From contig JAURJB010000009.1 of NCBI GenBank assembly GCA_030832455.1, positions 1 through 37,107 on the forward strand: a stretch of DNA of 37,107 bases, given 5' to 3'. A program made the translations under genes and the position numbers. Source of the DNA: Acidimicrobiales bacterium. GTDB lineage: Bacteria; Actinomycetota; Acidimicrobiia; Acidimicrobiales; Ilumatobacteraceae. How positions within the stretch are numbered: position 1 is the stretch's first letter; the number at the start of each line of letters is the position of its first letter. This document shows, piece after piece, positions 1 to 29,804 of this stretch. The notes beneath the pieces were generated by a model that was not told where the DNA came from, made no database searches, and saw only the letters and a program-made list of their open reading frames with translations.

Positions 1-120
1 ATCATAAAGACGTGCCTGTTCGACCGGGTCACCCGCATCCACTAGATTAACAAAATTCACGCCCTTTACAACGCGGCCTGCATAAACATCAAGGCAGGGA
101 ATAATCCGCTTCGTCAGCAT
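1..120 (-). CDS. hisF: Imidazole glycerol phosphate synthase cyclase subunit HisF, N-terminal fragment cut by window edge
   Basis: Reverse complement of 1-120 reads [40 protein letters not shown], a characteristic HisF N-terminus; start overlaps the end of hisH by 7 nt. Confidence 0.93.
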
Positions 121-713
121 CGCAAATCTACAAAGGCACGAATAATGCGCTCGCCAACGTCAGCAGACTTTTCAGGATGAAATTGCACTCCGAAAATTTT
201 TTCTTGTTCGACCACTGCCGAAAACGGTTCACCATGTTCGGTGAGCGCAACCGTTTTACTGATTACTGGACAGAAGTAGCTATGAGCAAAATATCCATAC
301 GATCCGTTCATTTCCTGCGCCAAAATTTTCGAACTCTGCGTGAGCTCGAATGAATTCCATCCCATATGTGGAATTCGCTCACCGCCCGAAAACTTCCTTA
401 CTGTGCCTGGGAATACTCCGAGACCGTGATCGGTCGGTGATTCGCTGCTCCCGTCAAAGAGCAAGTGCATTCCCAAGCAAATCCCAAGGAAAGGAACGCC
501 TAAAGCGATTTGCGAAACCATCGCTTGACGAAGTTTTCGAGAGTCAATTTCTGAGCACATATGGCCGAAATGGCCTACTCCTGGAAAGATGATCTTTTCT
601 GCATCCCTCAGTTGTTCACCGAATGTGGCGATCTTGTACTTAACATCAATTTTCTGAAGAATATTCGCGACAGACTGCAGATTCCCAGCACCGTAATCAA
701 CAAGTGCAATCAC
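114..713 (-). CDS. hisH: Imidazole glycerol phosphate synthase glutamine amidotransferase subunit HisH
   Basis: [15 protein letters not shown]-terminus, GICLGMHLL nucleophile motif and FHPEKS motif; GTG start at 713 overlaps hisB stop (GTGA); the 226-aa ORF-track start is probably over-extended. Confidence 0.94.
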
Positions 714-1297
714 AACAGCCCCTTCGTGGAAGGCAGTTGATCTTTGAGGCGTACGTCTGTCGAACACGCATAACGAAGAGCACGGGCGAAACATTTAAAG
801 ATCGCCTCAATCTTGTGATGGCTAGATCGTCCGTACATCACCTTGACATGCACATTCGCTCCAGCGCTATTGGCAAAAGCACCAAAGAAGTCATGAATAA
901 GTTCGACTTGTAGGTCACCAACCATTCGTGCACGGATTTGGTCTGCGTACACCAATGCCGGTCTGCCACTTAAATCAATTGCGGTAACCGCAAGAGTTTC
1001 ATCCATGGGCAACACGAAGTATCCAGCGCGATTGATCCCAACCTTTTTACCCAATGCTTTTTTGAACAACTCACCAAGCACAATCCCAATATCTTCGACG
1101 GTGTGGTGCTGATCGATATCCAAATCGCCGATCGCTCTGACCGTAAGGTCAAAGCCACCGTGCTTGGCGAAGAGCTCGAGCATGTGATCAAGGAATCGGA
1201 TCCCTGTATCGATGTCATACCGACCTTTTCCTTCGATCACCAGACTCGCAGTAATCTGCGTCTCCTTGGTAACTCGCTTTACCGTTGCTTTCCTCAT
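710..1297 (-). CDS. hisB: Imidazoleglycerol-phosphate dehydratase
   Basis: [39 protein letters not shown] motifs; 195 aa, IGPD domain only; ATGA overlap with hisC. Confidence 0.96.
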
Positions 1298-2343
1298 AGT
1301 GCCCTCTCCAACTCATGAATAAAGTTTTTCATTTGATCTGTTGTTCCGACTGTGACCCTGAGACTGCCTTCACATTCATGGCTTCTATTTCGAACGAGTA
1401 CTCCTGCAGCACGAAGATCGGACACAATGCGTTCAGCATGCTCTCCGACCATGAATAGAACAAAGTTGCCATCGGATTTGAAATGCCGAATACCAAGTCT
1501 GCTCATTTCAGCACTGACATAACTTCGAGCTTGAACAACTTGGTTGACGTAGTTTTCTATGTATGCCTTGTCCTTGATTGCGGCCACAGCGGCAGCTACC
1601 GCTACATAATTGACGCTGTACGGAGATTGCGCCTTACGTACCCACCCAATGTTGCTTGCAGATGAAATCAGGAAACCACACCGAAGGCCCGCCATCCCAT
1701 AAGCCTTTGACATAGTTCGACTGATGAATAAGTTTCCATATTCACTCAGTAATCCAATTGCAGTGATGCCACAAAACTCCATATACGCCTCATCAATGAG
1801 CACCACAGCATTCGGCGCAGCCTCCAAAATGCGGCGAATTTCGGGAATCGAGATGGCCCCACCTGTTGGATTGTTGGGATTTGCAATAAAGATTGCATTT
1901 GTTGACGCAGATATTGACAGGAGAAGTGCATCCATAGGGAACTCCAAATCAGTGTCAAGCGAATATTTCACTTCGCGCACTCGCACTCCCGCTACCTCGG
2001 CATAAAAGCGGTACATGGCATATGACGGACTGGTAATCACGAGTTCGTCACCTGCATCCATGTAAGTGTTGATCAGCAACTGGATTGCCTCATCTGTTCC
2101 ATTAGTGATAGCCAACTGCGCCGAGTCAACTTCAAAGAATGAAGAAAAGATGTCTCGTGCCGAGCCGTACTCGGGGTACATGGCCACGCTGTTTTCTGAA
2201 AGCGCCTGTACAACTGCGGCAGTAACCGTTGGCGAACACCCCACGGTATTTTCGTTGAAATCAAGCCGTATTGCTGCTCCTCTTTCTTGCGTGGGAGGAG
2301 AATATGCCTGCATATTCACAATAGATTTACGCGGTTTCATCAT
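1294..2343 (-). CDS. hisC: Histidinol-phosphate aminotransferase
   Basis: [41 protein letters not shown]-lysine motif; his operon context. Confidence 0.93.
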
Positions 2344-3562
2344 TCCTCATTTCCACGCTGCGTGCATGGGCTTCCAAACCTTCTGCACGCGCCAACACCG
2401 TGACAGAGGACTCAAGTGTGCTCAACGCTGTCTTGCTTAATTCCTGAACGGTTATCACTTTCACAAAATCGTTCACGCTCAGCCCGCCCCGAACTGCTGC
2501 AACACCCGATGTCGGTAAAACATGGTTTGGCCCACTCGCGTAATCACCTGCAGCCTCTGTGCTGTACCGACCGACAAAGATTGATCCAGCATTGTTGACC
2601 CGTGCGACATCACCCATCTGCTCAACCGACAAGTGTTCAGGCGCAATAACATTTGCCAGTTCGAAAGCCGACTCAGTTGATTGACACATGACAATCGCGC
2701 TGTTTTCTACGATTGCCTGCTCTGCAACACGTGCAGTTGGCAATGTAGACAACTGAATCGCAATTTCTGCCTGCACGCGTAATGCCAAGTGTTTATCTGT
2801 TGTCAACAACATGGCCCGAGCATCAATATCGTGTTCTGCCTGAGCCAACATATCGGCGGCAATCCAACGGGCGTTCCCCTGTGTAGCGATGATGACAATC
2901 TCACTTGGCCCTGCTACGAAATCAATCGCAACATCTTGCGACACCATTTTCTTTGCTGCTGCAACATAAACATTCCCTGGCCCAACAATCCGCTGAACAC
3001 GGTTCACCGATTCCGTACCATAAGCCATTGCCGCAATCGCCTGTGCTCCACCTGCATGCAGAACCTGCTGTACACCGAGCAATTTGGCAACAGCAAGAAT
3101 TTCCCGACTTGGCTGCGGACATGCAACAACAATGTTGCGAACACCTGCTGCCCGCGCAGGAATCACTGCCATGAGCAACGTACTGATGAGCGGATAACGC
3201 CCTGCGGGAACATACACACCAACCGAATCAAGCGGCCGAATAACTTGACCCAATGTGCGACCCTCTGAGTACTCACGTGTCCATGAAGCAGCAAGTTGTG
3301 ATTCGGAGAACGATTGAATGTTGTTACTCGCCTGCATGACCGCTTGCTGAAGCCCATCGTCAAGTACGCCTGTTGCATCCATATACAGCGGTTCATCCAA
3401 TGCAACAAGATCAAATCGCTGCCGAAACTCCCTCAGCGCTTCGTCACCACGTAGTCGAACATCATTTACGATCGGCGCAACGATCTTCATCGCTTCGTCT
3501 ATTCGATCCTCGGGCCGGTTCAACACGGTCAGTGCTTCAGTCTCAGAGATGATGCGAATCAT
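2327..3562 (-). CDS. hisD: Histidinol dehydrogenase
   Basis: VYVPAGRYPLISTLLM, AIAAMAYGTESV, GPGNVYVAAAKK, AGPSEI, LAQAEHD, APEHL motifs; start overlaps hisG stop by 1 nt (TGATG). Confidence 0.97.
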   Translation of the reverse strand: MIRIISETEALTVLNRPEDRIDEAMKIVAPIVNDVRLRGDEALREFRQRFDLVALDEPLYMDATGVLDDGLQQAVMQASNNIQSFSESQLAASWTREYSEGRTLGQVIRPLDSVGVYVPAGRYPLISTLLMAVIPARAAGVRNIVVACPQPSREILAVAKLLGVQQVLHAGGAQAIAAMAYGTESVNRVQRIVGPGNVYVAAAKKMVSQDVAIDFVAGPSEIVIIATQGNARWIAADMLAQAEHDIDARAMLLTTDKHLALRVQAEIAIQLSTLPTARVAEQAIVENSAIVMCQSTESAFELANVIAPEHLSVEQMGDVARVNNAGSIFVGRYSTEAAGDYASGPNHVLPTSGVAAVRGGLSVNDFVKVITVQELSKTALSTLESSVTVLARAEGLEAHARSVEMRNDETA

Positions 3563-4431
3563 CAGTTAACGATCTTGTTCAATGGATATTCGACAATCCC
3601 AGTTGCACCAGCCGCCTTCAAACGCGGAATAATGGTTCGCACCGTTGACTCATCCAAAATCGTGTTGAGCGCCAACCAGCCGTTCTGAGAAAGATTCGAC
3701 ACAGTCGGCGTTTTCAACGCAGGAAGAACATCGAGCACTGACTGAAGGCAGGATTGTGGCGCATTCATCATCAGCCCAACCTTGCCCATCGCGGCAATCG
3801 CCCCGTCCAACAGCATCTTGATATCGAGGAGTTGTTGCTTCTTGCCTGTGTCCTTCCAGCTTTCCAAGTTGGCAATCAGCTGCGTATTGGACTCCAACAC
3901 GGTTTCGACAACTCGCAAGTTGTTAGCCCTGAGCGATGACCCAGTTTCCGTTACTTCAACGATTGCATCTGCCAATACTGGAGGCTTCACCTCGGTAGCG
4001 CCCCAGCTGAATTCAACCTTTGCGGTTACGCCATTGCGCTCGAGGTAACGCTTTGTTGTCTCCACCAACTCAGTTGCAATCACCTTCCCTTCAAGATCTT
4101 TAACTGACAACACCTCAGAGTTATCTGGAACTGCAAGTACCCAACGAACGCGCCCAAAACTTTGCTTGGCGTACACCAAATCTGCGATTGGTTCAATCGT
4201 CGCTCCAGTCTCTGCAACCCAGTCAAGCCCGGTAAGACCTGCATCGAGAACACCATCTTCCACATAGCGCGCCATCTCTTGCGCACGAATCAACATGCAT
4301 TCGATATTTGGGTCGTCAATCGCGGGAAAGTATGAACGACTATTGACAGTGATCTGAAAACCAGCACGACGGAACAGGTCAATCGTTGCGTTTTCTAAAC
4401 TTCCCTTCGGGATTCCTAATTTGAGTGTCAT
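3562..4431 (-). CDS. hisG: ATP phosphoribosyltransferase (long form with C-terminal regulatory domain)
   Basis: [26 protein letters not shown]-terminus; [15 protein letters not shown] at 4431 forms ATGA overlap with hisI stop, so the ORF-track start at 4488 is over-extended. Confidence 0.93.
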
Positions 4432-4820
4432 TTTGCTCCTCCGTAGATGTCTTGTGGTGAAAAGGTTTGCTGTTCGGTGGTAATCCATTCATTTCCCACG
4501 CGTAGGCGAAAGAAACAACTCTGATAACCCTCGTGACACACGCCTGGACCGTTAGCTTGTACGCGCACAACGATGGCGTCTCTGTCGCAGTCGGTTCTAA
4601 GTGAGACCACCTGCAATGTGTGTCCAGACGACTCACCTTTCACCCATTGCTTGTTGCGCGAACGGCTATAGAACGTGACAAGACCAGTTTCTAGAGTGTT
4701 GGTATAAGCCTCCTGGTTCATAAAACCCACCATCAATACGTCGCTTGTCATGTCGTCCTGCACCACTACGGCTGCAAGGCCGTCGAGTTTGCTGAAGTCA
4801 ATTTCTTCCATGTCGGTCAT
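4428..4820 (-). CDS. hisI: Phosphoribosyl-AMP cyclohydrolase
   Basis: [83 protein letters not shown] upstream of ATG at 4820. Confidence 0.93.
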
Positions 4821-4857
4821 TTGGGTTCCTTTTGCTTGGTTTTGGATCATTCGGGAT

Positions 4858-4891
4858 AATAAAAAAACCCGCCGGTGAAAACCGACGGGCT
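4858..4891 (-). terminator. Intrinsic (rho-independent) terminator serving as the histidine attenuator terminator (region 3:4)
   Basis: Minus strand reads CCCGTCGGT-TTTC-ACCGGCGGG-TTTTTTTATTAT: a 9-position GC-rich stem, 4-nt loop and U-tract, between the leader peptide stop and hisI. Confidence 0.92.
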
Positions 4892-4934
4892 CTGAGCAGT
4901 TTGGAGAAACTGGGTGCGTTACAGATTAGCCCGT
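4885..4934 (-). promoter_or_regulatory. Antiterminator helix (region 2:3) of the his attenuator
   Basis: Minus-strand ACGGGCT (4934-4928) is a perfect complement of AGCCCGT (4891-4885), the 5' terminator arm; CTG (4924-4922) also pairs with CAG (4894-4892) across a 3-nt bulge. Confidence 0.8.
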
Positions 4935-4981
4935 TGCGTCACGTGATGTACGTGATGATGGGCGACATGTGTAATCAACAT
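4919..4981 (-). CDS. hisL: His-rich leader peptide of the histidine operon, MLITHVAHHHVHHVTQRANL*
   Basis: ATG TTG ATT ACA CAT GTC GCC CAT CAT CAC GTA CAT CAC GTG ACG CAA CGG GCT AAT CTG TAA; 6 His codons in 20, directly upstream of a terminator and hisI. Confidence 0.9.
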   Translation of the reverse strand: MLITHVAHHHVHHVTQRANL

Positions 4982-4987
4982 CTGATT

Positions 4988-5021
4988 GATCAGACTAACG
5001 GCTAGTGAGCGCTACAGCAAC
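4988..5021 (-). promoter_or_regulatory. Candidate promoter for the his leader
   Basis: Minus strand TTGCTG, 17-nt spacer, TAGTCT, then 10 nt to the leader ATG; overlaps the end of the preceding CDS; boundaries approximate. Confidence 0.4.
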
Positions 5022-6217
5022 GTGGCAGGAACAGAACTCATCTCGAGATGCAGTTCGCTCCCTGTATACGGATGAGCGAGGGCAACATCTTCATTCAACT
5101 CGATGCCGAGGCCAGGCTCCGTTGGCGGAATGATGAATCCACTTTCGAACTTGATTGACGTCTTCACAAGTTCGGAATGGAAACCCTGCCAACCCTGGAT
5201 GGTTTCCAGGATCAGGAAGTTTGGTGTACACGTCGCCAGCTGGATGTTTGCTGCGGCAACCACCGGACCGCAATACAGGTGTGGCGCAATTTGTGCGTGA
5301 TACACCTCGGCCATGCTCGCAATCTTCTTGCCTTCAAGCAAGCCTCCGCAACGACCCAGATTCGGCTGCAATATTGAGGCTGCACCCGTTTTGAGCAGTT
5401 GATGGAACTCGTATTTTGTTGTCAGTCGCTCGCCTGCCGAGATAGGAATGCTAGTTGCGCGAGCAACTTTGGCAATTTCATCTGGACTATCTGGTGGGCA
5501 CGGCTCTTCAAACCACAACGGGTCGTACTTTTCGAGCTTTTTTGCCAAACGAATTGCACCCGATGCGGTGAACTGACCATGAGTACCGAACAAAATGTCT
5601 GCTCGATCGCCAATCGCATCACGGACCGCGCGCACCATCTTTTCTGAAAGGTCCATTGCATGCAGCGCAGGTTGACGGCCGTCATATACCGAATAGCGAC
5701 CTGCTGGGTCGAACTTCACTCCTGTGAAGCCACGCTCCACTTCGCGCACTGCACATTCGGCGGCAGCATCTGGGTCGCTGTACACAGGATCGTCCGCGTA
5801 CACATCAACACCAACAGGTGGATACAGGTACGTATAGGCACGGAGTTTTTCGTGCACGCGACCACCCAGTAGTTCGTACACAGGCTTGCCGGTCTCTTTT
5901 CCGCAAATGTCCCACATGGCCATTTCCAATCCGGAAACGATCCCGCCCGTGGTGAGATCTGGACGATGCGCATAGCCGCGGCCGTACACGTTGCGCCACA
6001 TGTGTTCGATATGGAATGGATCGGCACCAATGACATGTCGCGCTGCAACTTCTTCTGCCATTTTCGCTACCAAATGCGGCGAATATGTTGCAGTGTAAAT
6101 CTCGCCAATTCCGGAAATACCGGTATCTGTTGTGAGCTTTACGAAGATGAAGTAACGGCCACCGAAACGTGGCGGTGGATTGCCCACCACGAATGTCTTG
6201 ATGTCGACGATTTTCAT
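5012..6217 (-). CDS. Enolase-superfamily (mandelate racemase/muconate lactonizing-like) sugar-acid dehydratase
   Basis: GIGEIYTATYSPH, GLEMAMWDICGKETGKPVYELLGG, WFEEPCPPDSPDE, ISAGERLTTKYEF motifs. Confidence 0.85.
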   Translation of the reverse strand: MKIVDIKTFVVGNPPPRFGGRYFIFVKLTTDTGISGIGEIYTATYSPHLVAKMAEEVAARHVIGADPFHIEHMWRNVYGRGYAHRPDLTTGGIVSGLEMAMWDICGKETGKPVYELLGGRVHEKLRAYTYLYPPVGVDVYADDPVYSDPDAAAECAVREVERGFTGVKFDPAGRYSVYDGRQPALHAMDLSEKMVRAVRDAIGDRADILFGTHGQFTASGAIRLAKKLEKYDPLWFEEPCPPDSPDEIAKVARATSIPISAGERLTTKYEFHQLLKTGAASILQPNLGRCGGLLEGKKIASMAEVYHAQIAPHLYCGPVVAAANIQLATCTPNFLILETIQGWQGFHSELVKTSIKFESGFIIPPTEPGLGIELNEDVALAHPYTGSELHLEMSSVPATLL

Positions 6218-7340: not shown

Positions 7341-8069
7341 CTACTTGGCGTAGTCAGGACACTCGCTATCAAGGATGTGCATTAGTGCTTGGAAATGCAG
7401 TTTCGCCACACCGGGATACTCCCGAGTCTGCTTAGCCACCATTGCCGCGGTTTCGTTATCAACGAGTTGCAGGGGACGCTGTGTGGACAACGCAAGAACC
7501 TGCAATTGCGCTGCCTTCTCGAGGTAATAGAGCGAGTCAAATGCCTGAGCCACAGTTTCGCCCACCACCATCACGCCGTGATTGCCCATGAACAACACAT
7601 CCTTGCCATCACTCAACAGCGAAGCAATTCGCTCACCCTCGGTTGGATCGAGGGCCATTCCCGCGTAGTTGCGATCGTAAGCAATGCGACCATGAAAAGC
7701 ACATGCATTCTGATCCAACATCAAGAACTCAAAATCTTTCAAACATGCGAGCGCCGTCGTGTATGGCATATGGGTGTGCAAAACACATTTGGCATGTGCA
7801 ACATTGCGATGAAGGTATGAATGCAGCACCCAGGCCGTCGGGTCGACGCCAAAGTCGAGAGAATCGCCGCCCATTGATGTATCAACGGCAACAAGCCCAC
7901 TGGCAGTCACTTGAGAGAAATGCGTACCAGCACGATTAACGATGAATCGTTGACCATCATCTGAAACCGCCATGCTGAAATGATTGGCAACCGCTTCATG
8001 CAGATTCAAGCGCGCAGCCCAGCGAAACGCCGCAGCCAACTCTTTGCGAACTTGTTGTTCTTGCGACAT
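7341..8069 (-). CDS. Class II aldolase/adducin family protein
   Basis: NHFSMAV, LHTHMPYTTALACL and GNHGVMVVGETVAQAFDSLYYLEKAA motifs. Confidence 0.9.
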   Translation of the reverse strand: MSQEQQVRKELAAAFRWAARLNLHEAVANHFSMAVSDDGQRFIVNRAGTHFSQVTASGLVAVDTSMGGDSLDFGVDPTAWVLHSYLHRNVAHAKCVLHTHMPYTTALACLKDFEFLMLDQNACAFHGRIAYDRNYAGMALDPTEGERIASLLSDGKDVLFMGNHGVMVVGETVAQAFDSLYYLEKAAQLQVLALSTQRPLQLVDNETAAMVAKQTREYPGVAKLHFQALMHILDSECPDYAK

Positions 8070-27875: not shown

Positions 27876-29804
27876 GTGAGCAAACTTCCACCACCCCCAC
27901 CCCCATCGTCATCACCAAAGCGTAAAAACCCCCTTGGTATTCCCGGCAAACAGAACCAGAACAAGTCAGGCAAAGAGCGCAGTTCGATGCCGCGTTGGGC
28001 CGTGTGGGTCTTAATTGCCATCGCGGCTGGACTCATTCTGGCGCCACGAATTTGGCCAGCATCCACTGCCACAAAGGTGACCTATACCGAATTTCTTGCA
28101 CTAGTCCAAAGCGGAAAAGTAAACAACGTAGAAATCAACAACCTGAACAACACCATTAGCGGAGTCATGGATGATGGCAGCGAGTTCGTCACAACGGGCG
28201 CAACGGCGTTGTCTGATGCCGACGAACAGCTACTCAAAGAAAAGGGTGTCGATTACGACTTCGCAACACCACAGGGCAACTTTTTTACCAATCTGATTCC
28301 TATTTTATTGCCATTCTTTTTGATCATGGGCTTCTTTATCTGGATGCAACGTCGTGCGATGGGCCAAGCAGGCAACATCATGTCGATTGGACGCAGCCGA
28401 GCAAAGAATTACAACGCTGACAAACCAAGCACCACGTTTGCTGATGTTGCTGGCTACGACGGAGTAAAGCAGGAGATCAAAGAAGTTGTTGACTTCTTGC
28501 GAATGCCAGAGCGCTTTAAAGAAATCGGAGCTCGGGTACCAAAGGGAATCTTGCTTGTTGGCCCTCCAGGAACCGGGAAAACTTTGTTTGCGCGCGCAGT
28601 TGCCGGTGAAGCAGGAGTTGGATTTCTTTCGGTAACGGGTTCTGACTTTATGGAAATGTTCGTCGGTGTGGGTGCAAGCCGCGTGCGCGACCTTTTTCAG
28701 CAAGCAGCAAAAATGGGACGTGCGATCATATTTATCGACGAAATTGACTCAATCGGCCGCAAGCGTGGTGCAGGACTTGGTGGCGGTCACGACGAACGTG
28801 AACAAACGCTAAACCAAATGCTCGCCGAGATGGACGGCTTTGAAGCCACCGAAGGCATCGTTGTTCTTGCGGCAACCAACCGCCCCGACATTCTCGACCC
28901 AGCGCTCCTTCGTCCAGGTAGATTCGATCGCCAAATCATCGTTCCATTGCCAGAGTCAGATGAGCGCCTTGCAATTCTGAAAGTTCACTCCCAGGGCAAG
29001 CGCATGGGAACCGACATCGATCTTGACACCATGGCAAAAGCTACGCCAGGAATGAGCGGTGCCGATCTTGCCAACCTTGTCAACGAGGCTGCATTGTTTG
29101 CAGTTCGCCGAGGCTCAACTCACATCGAACGAATTGACTTTGAGAACGCACGTGACCGCGTAGTGCTCGGTGCACGACGAGAAAGCCTTGTGCTTAACGC
29201 TGAGGAAAAGCGCGCAACCGCGTACCACGAAGGCGGCCACGCAGTTCTCGCAACAGTCTTGCCAAATAGCGATCCATTGCACAAAGTGACGATCCTTCCG
29301 CGCGGTATGGCTCTTGGTGTGACGTGGTCACTACCCGAAGAACGCCACACCTATTCACGTGAATACTTTGAAGATGTGATCTGCAAAGCCATGGGTGGTC
29401 GCGTTGCAGAGCAGATCGTCTTTGGGGCACTCAATAGCGGAGCAGCAAACGACCTCGAACAAGCAACAGGCATCGCCCGGCGCATGGTTCGCGAATGGGG
29501 CATGAGCGACGCAGTTGGACCAATGGCATTTGCAGGACAGCAACAGGTATTTCTCGGCGAGGACTTGATGACAAGTGGCCGTGAATACAGCGACGAAATG
29601 GCGCGCAAGATTGATGAAGAGATCAGTCGCATTTTGCGTGAGCAAGAGGCACGTGCACGCGTGACTCTAGAAAAGCATCGACGTGGTCTCGATCTCGTAG
29701 CACATGCGCTACTTGATCAAGAGACCATTGATGGTGCAATGGTGTCGCGCTTGATCCAGCAAGGTCTTGGCGAACCAAGTCGCCAAACAACACCAAACAA
29801 CTAG
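27876..29804 (+). CDS. ftsH: ATP-dependent zinc metalloprotease FtsH
   Basis: [59 protein letters not shown], zinc site YHEGGHAV; N-terminal TMs. Confidence 0.97.

Follow-up and report, generated by a model that had tools for sequence, protein, structure and literature searches.

A predicted, probably leaderless histidine attenuator precedes an Acidobacteriota-type his operon in freshwater Acidimicrobiia

Organization of the his Locus

The window, i.e., the whole stretch of 37,107 nucleotides that was analysed, belongs to a 1.47 Mb assembly (88% complete) of a freshwater actinobacterium of the class Acidimicrobiia. A his operon is encoded on its minus strand, the first structural gene, hisI, being preceded by a short His-rich reading frame and an intrinsic terminator. 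The contig ends shortly beyond hisH, and in relatives, two more hisF/hisA-like genes follow this gene. The features are as follows:

5015..5020, minus strand: candidate −35 box TTGCTG, overlapping the end of the enolase-superfamily gene located upstream (putative, from a consensus match)
4992..4997, minus strand: candidate −10 box TAGTCT, 10 nt upstream of the leader ATG (from the sequence)
4919..4981, minus strand: leader peptide ORF MLITHVAHHHVHHVTQRANL, followed by a stop codon, with six His codons (direct read; conserved in 6/6 hisI-bearing genomes of the genus)
4960..4963, minus strand: outer strand of region 1, GCCC (fold; cognate 1:2 pairing test)
4955-4939, minus strand: inner hairpin TCACGT/ACGTGA within 1:2 (fold)
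4928..4934, minus strand: region 2, ACGGGCT, codons 16-18, pairing with region 1 (GGGC:GCCC) or with region 3
4897..4912, minus strand: small hairpin CAGTTT-ctcc-AAACTG, in the antiterminator loop (sequence and fold)
4885..4894, minus strand: region 3, CAG-AGCCCGT, 5′ arm common to antiterminator and terminator (sequence and fold)
4861..4889, minus strand: intrinsic terminator CCCGTCGGT-TTTC-ACCGGCGGG plus T7, regions 3:4 (sequence, fold, covariation)
4428..4820, minus strand: hisI (PRA-CH), first structural gene (PF01502, E 4e-32; putative start, from the sequence)
3562..4488, minus strand: hisG (PF01634/PF08029)
2327..3562, minus strand: hisD (PF00815)
1294..2343, minus strand: hisC (PF00155 and operon position)
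710..1297, minus strand: hisB (PF00475)
114..794, minus strand: hisH (PF00117)

Translation of hisI probably starts at the ATG at 4820, located after AAGGA, rather than at the mechanical ORF start at 4850. The leader had been described in the first-pass annotation as a 20-codon ORF with six His codons at minus 4981-4919, which proved exact to the base. Its codons (4981..4919, minus strand) read ATG TTG ATT ACA CAT GTC GCC CAT CAT CAC GTA CAT CAC GTG ACG CAA CGG GCT AAT CTG TAA, with His at codons 5, 8, 9, 10, 12, and 13 (6/20 codons). No Shine–Dalgarno site was seen in the sequence before the leader ATG of the window. The CAGTTT-ctcc-AAACTG hairpin and the terminator sequences given in the same annotation likewise match the direct read, the terminator hairpin being located at 4889-4868 and the seven T residues at 4867-4861 (minus strand). 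Furthermore, region 2 (ACGGGCT, 4934-4928) and AGCCCGT (4891-4885) are perfect reverse complements, as had been claimed; however, region 2 comprises codons 16-18 and not codons 15-18.

Other His-rich frames in the window, at 7551 and 24484, lie inside longer open frames opposite genes. A His-rich stretch at 27889 (window 27876-29804) was rejected, as it represents a shifted frame at the start of an FtsH-like gene, with out-of-frame proline codons and no leader.

Competing Helices and Predicted Mechanism

Folding of the leader region, an analysis already suggested with the initial description, was carried out for positions 4990-4850 (141 nt) and yielded −40.3 kcal/mol (z = −3.1 compared with dinucleotide shuffles), and the competing helices fit. 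Helices 1:2, 2:3, and 3:4 are mutually exclusive in the window, the antiterminator 2:3 itself being excluded by 1:2, and the predicted energies for antiterminator and terminator are −15.4 and −15.6 kcal/mol, respectively. With a ribosome modelled on the leader stop codon, the terminator alone remained in the window fold, and a modelled stall on any of the first five His codons allowed the antiterminator to form before the 3′ arm was made.

Stalling, termination, and the response to histidine can be predicted from this anatomy as follows. RNA polymerase would initiate at the ATG of the leader or a few nucleotides upstream of it, and the leader would be translated in leaderless form. With ample His-tRNA, the ribosome would reach the stop codon (4921-4919) and cover region 2, upon which region 3 would pair with region 4 and transcription would end at approximately position 4861. 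With His-tRNA being short, the ribosome would stall on the His run and cover region 1; region 2 (4934-4928) would then be available for pairing with region 3 (4891-4885), allowing the polymerase to continue into hisI. On an untranslated leader, 1:2 would form and the terminator would be kept.

Candidate Promoter and Start of the Leader

For attenuation, a ribosome must engage the leader shortly after transcription has begun. A spacer of 17 nt separates the candidate boxes TTGCTG and TAGTCT of the window, and the remaining five genus members feature a comparable TTGTGT/TTGGCA...TAGNNT arrangement with a spacing of 17-18 nt. When 70 acidobacterial loci were aligned at the start codon of the leader, 55 of them featured a TATACT-like box whose end lies 8-9 nt upstream of the ATG, TTTC was seen directly before the ATG, and a Shine–Dalgarno-like motif was present in two leaders only. 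The −10 box TAGTCT of the window, 10 nt from the ATG, is weaker than the acidobacterial consensus. Since the ATG follows the −10 box after 8-10 nt and a Shine–Dalgarno site is absent, the mRNA from which the leader is translated is probably leaderless, its start at or a few nucleotides before the ATG being deduced from the spacing.

A leaderless start had not been mentioned in the first-pass annotation, and this form of a His leader looks new. The leader peptide of trpL in Sinorhizobium meliloti is leaderless, with a mapped 5′ end (PMC7298713), and leaderless leader peptides are also encoded by the cysteine-rich upstream small ORFs of mycobacteria (PMC4633059). Both resemble the present case in having a short regulatory ORF at or near the transcript 5′ end, but they differ in amino acid and lineage, and the 5′ end of trpL was mapped, whereas here it is deduced. 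A leaderless start would represent a different route to early ribosome loading on an attenuator leader, which is a testable question.

Conservation within the Genus

The hisI gene was found in 6 out of 23 genus genomes, the same six also carrying a full-length hisD and all belonging to Acidimicrobiia. Leader, terminator, and region 2 are present in each of these six genomes. The alignment of hisI upstream regions of relatives, as proposed in the first-pass annotation, showed that the His run and the pairing are kept in 6/6 genus genomes, and no genome within the genus retained hisI while having lost the His codons or the pairing (0/6). From the leader to the poly-U tract, identity between the window and three relatives amounts to 93-94%, compared to 69-70% for hisI DNA and 60-80% for the upstream flank; for the two most distant genus members, the values are 78% for the leader block and 67-69% for hisI.

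The gene upstream of the leader varies among the genus genomes, while leader and terminator are constant. This observation bears on the explanation that the hairpin merely serves as 3′ terminator for the enolase-superfamily gene upstream and that the His-rich ORF arose by chance. In favour of this explanation, only 30 nt separate the enolase stop codon (5014-5012) from the leader ORF, and the hairpin has the properties of a good intrinsic terminator. However, a different gene ends upstream in L032, L034, L029, and L035, where leader and terminator stay in place, and the same arrangement precedes hisI at dozens of acidobacterial loci, so that this explanation is hardly tenable. Given these differing upstream neighbours, the leader block does not represent the tail end of the enolase-like gene.

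Outside the genus, a short ORF with at least five His in eight codons was detected in none of 85 hisI upstream regions of the same family and order (0/85), and a comparable leader was absent upstream of native hisD (24 loci) and hisG (18 loci). Among Markov-shuffled windows, 2/30 held a comparable His-rich frame.

Both hisI and full-length hisD are absent in 17 of the 23 genus genomes (G002, G004-G012, G014, G015, G017, and G019-G022), and six of the eight good-quality genus genomes lack them. Judged by gene content, these 17 members may be histidine auxotrophs.

Occurrence in Acidobacteriota and Other Acidimicrobiia

The HisI sequence of the genus was scanned against 84,980 bacterial and archaeal species genomes, and the best 80 matches were examined. 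These matches originated from the genus, from one Acidimicrobiaceae bin (L142), and otherwise from Acidobacteriota (Bryobacterales, Solibacter, Terriglobia, and similar). A His leader (at least four His in eight codons) was found in 77 of the best 80 hisI loci, nearly all of them acidobacterial; a clear leader is missing in L126 and L134, and L135 is cut by the contig end, with the His run still visible. In an even Acidobacteriota sample of 92 hisI loci, including three named genomes used as centres, leader occurrence was recorded by identity to the window hisI: 14/15 loci at ≥55% identity, 11/23 at 50-55%, and 1/54 at lower values.

The RNA model R1 (E ≤ 0.001) matched in up to 52/247 genomes, some matches being terminator-only, and most of the inspected matches precede hisI-hisG. 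Matches at the same threshold in Actinomycetota outside Acidimicrobiia were judged false, having neither a His leader nor a his gene, and no match to the attenuator was obtained among phage records.

Acidobacteriota operons beginning with hisD (L375, L379, and L391) or hisG (L369 and L377) each carry a His-rich leader and a terminator. In two other Acidimicrobiia families, the leaders MQRTHIHGHHHHHILVGA and MYTMTHHLHHHHAQEGWLEV, together with terminators, were found before the own hisD and hisG genes:

L358 (G337), 1500-1640: His-rich leader of one of the two Acidimicrobiia families
L359 (G551), 1500-1620: His-rich leader of the other family

Taken together, it appears likely that the leaderless His attenuator is old and common in Acidobacteriota his operons of several architectures, that the cassette of operon and attenuator moved into small-genome freshwater Acidimicrobiia, which are mostly devoid of a his operon, and that comparable attenuators precede the native hisD or hisG of other Acidimicrobiia.

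Structure Tests across Loci

Across 77 loci, cognate region 1:2 and 2:3 duplexes were stronger than permuted ones (z −7.8 and −5.0, respectively; 0/10000 in both cases), relatedness among loci not being fully removed in these permuted-pair tests. For 14 mutually dissimilar loci, the corresponding values were p 5e-5 (1:2) and p 0.02 (2:3). Within the terminator, both-side changes were observed in four pairs among 52 aligned relatives. The 2:3 helix is 80% paired, compared to 32-48% when slid; it features few compensatory changes, and its covariation is weak because the core CGGGC:GCCCG is nearly invariant. In L107-L109, L127, L158, and L161, region 2 is located just past the leader stop codon.

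Instead of causing intrinsic termination, the leader peptide could act on hisI translation or through Rho, as was proposed for other actinobacterial leader peptides, namely cysteine leaders without terminators (PMC1262725). However, the window carries a strong U-tailed terminator, hairpin energies fall below −10 kcal/mol in 78/79 loci, and the hisI start is located approximately 40 nt beyond the U-tract, outside the terminator hairpin; this alternative is accordingly considered unlikely.

The anatomy, conservation, pairing, and distribution observed here thus point to a classical ribosome-mediated attenuator that would sense histidyl-tRNA and control the hisIGDCBH... operon, a reading to which we assign a probability of roughly 0.9. 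Such a ribosome-mediated His attenuator had been proposed from the window alone; His-run conservation, 1:2 and 2:3 pairing, terminator covariation, and the occurrence upstream of his operons in dozens of genomes now argue for it at the level of comparative sequence data.

Origin of the Operon

The HisG and HisD proteins of the genus share 69-80% and 51-57.5% identity, respectively, with those of Bryobacterales, compared to 43-47% and 31-41% with those of native Acidimicrobiia. For 345 genomes sampled from the class, the matches listed include no HisG from beyond the genus with more than 47% identity. The gene order hisI-G-D-C-B is identical in Bryobacterales and in the window, and at native hisI loci of Acidimicrobiia, no recognised his gene is located within 1.5 kb of hisI (85/85 loci). 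The operon was previously designated actinobacterial, which is correct for its host; by HisG and gene order, however, it is of the Acidobacteriota (Bryobacterales) type.

The gene cluster flanking his is present in 22 out of 23 genus genomes. Comparison of the insertion site (L189, L190, and L191 versus L193, L194, and L195) revealed the same two genes (clusters 2 and 3) on either side of the his operon; in three his-less relatives, these genes are 18 nt apart. Conserved flanks and an empty site in relatives indicate that the contig is the genus's own and that the operon was gained or lost at one site. These data also bear on the objection that, although the attenuator exists, the his contig represents an assembly or binning artefact, i.e., acidobacterial DNA in actinobacterial bins, with no transfer involved. 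All genomes concerned are indeed metagenome-assembled; however, six genomes, at least five of them from separate records and projects, carry his, and its flanks correspond to the conserved cluster of the genus that also occurs in sister genomes without his, which makes an artefact extremely improbable.

Next to the enolase-like gene of the window, the first of the two genes flanking the his site is missing. In L193 (G003:C51:12547-12794), the final ~250 bp of the enolase-like gene are duplicated, and the extra copy is located directly before the his leader, approximately 1.9 kb from the full gene, as a remnant of rearrangement at this locus.

In the HisG tree, the genus nests within Acidobacteriota (SH-aLRT 86), and the AU test keeps the alternative with the genus outside (p 0.87-0.88). 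The HisG AU tests are uninformative, because the genus can occupy the long branch between the two groups. The HisD test rejects a grouping of the genus with native Acidimicrobiia (p 0.023). Both trees agree with a transfer and alone do not fix its direction; since the HisG AU test does not exclude the alternative, nesting and direction rest on identity, distribution, and the HisD result (p 0.023). On these grounds, we infer that the operon, apparently with its attenuator, was acquired from Acidobacteriota (Bryobacterales).

A second Acidimicrobiia genome with an acidobacterial-type operon and leader is G120 (L142/L198; Acidimicrobiaceae bin.158). The enolase cluster is absent in the 15 kb read at this locus, and its HisG groups with the genus and its HisD with Bryobacterales.

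Comparison with Known Attenuators

The textbook mechanism of His attenuation has been described chiefly in Proteobacteria and has been predicted in some Firmicutes. The Rfam family RF00514 (His_leader) gave no match at the gathering cutoff in the window and 17 related loci, or at E ≤ 10 for positions 4780-5060, and searches of Rfam at the gathering cutoff and at E ≤ 10 returned chance matches only (snoZ40, and a trpB motif below the cutoff). Regulation by a T-box or a HisR/TrpR-type repressor, with the His leader being secondary, has precedents in the His T-boxes of Corynebacterium and in HisR of Firmicutes (PMC9413887), but no T-box was found in a permissive scan of the leader, and at the gathering cutoff, the window had no Rfam match and the 17 related loci none except one tRNA, so that such regulation appears very unlikely.

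A survey of Actinobacteria from 2005 reported no conserved RNA structure upstream of his operons (PMC1262725), and in a survey from 2010, almost no predicted Acidobacteriota attenuator had an associated function (PMC2965389). No paper describing his attenuation in Acidobacteriota was found in what was mainly open-access literature, so an earlier mention is possible.

The attenuator of this study shares with the enterobacterial his leader (RF00514) the His-rich peptide, the competing 1:2/2:3/3:4 helices, the intrinsic terminator, and a his operon downstream; in contrast, its His run is shorter and interrupted, it is probably leaderless, and hisI instead of hisG is the first gene. In Firmicutes, his attenuators were predicted in 2022 for the Bacillus cereus group, Peptostreptococcaceae, and Erysipelotrichales, including one case of operon and attenuator transfer within the phylum, in Lutispora (PMC9413887). 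These follow the same logic, are also undetected by RF00514, and share the feature of one operon-with-attenuator transfer, but belong to another phylum and have leaders with three to five consecutive His codons (PMC9413887). Within Actinobacteria, the Streptomyces trpS and leuS attenuators (PMC1262725) and the Corynebacterium trp and ilvBNC attenuators (PMC4833913, PMC11857589) likewise combine a leader peptide with a terminator and antiterminator, but serve other amino acids.

The mechanism is therefore known, while the lineage, the leaderless form, and the apparent inter-phylum transfer of a gene set with its switch look new. Textbook His attenuation is now predicted in Acidobacteriota and in Actinobacteria. 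The switch is more conserved than hisI, the first gene that it would control, which suggests that an RNA switch relying on a ribosome can be carried along with its operon from one phylum to another and continue to be selected for.
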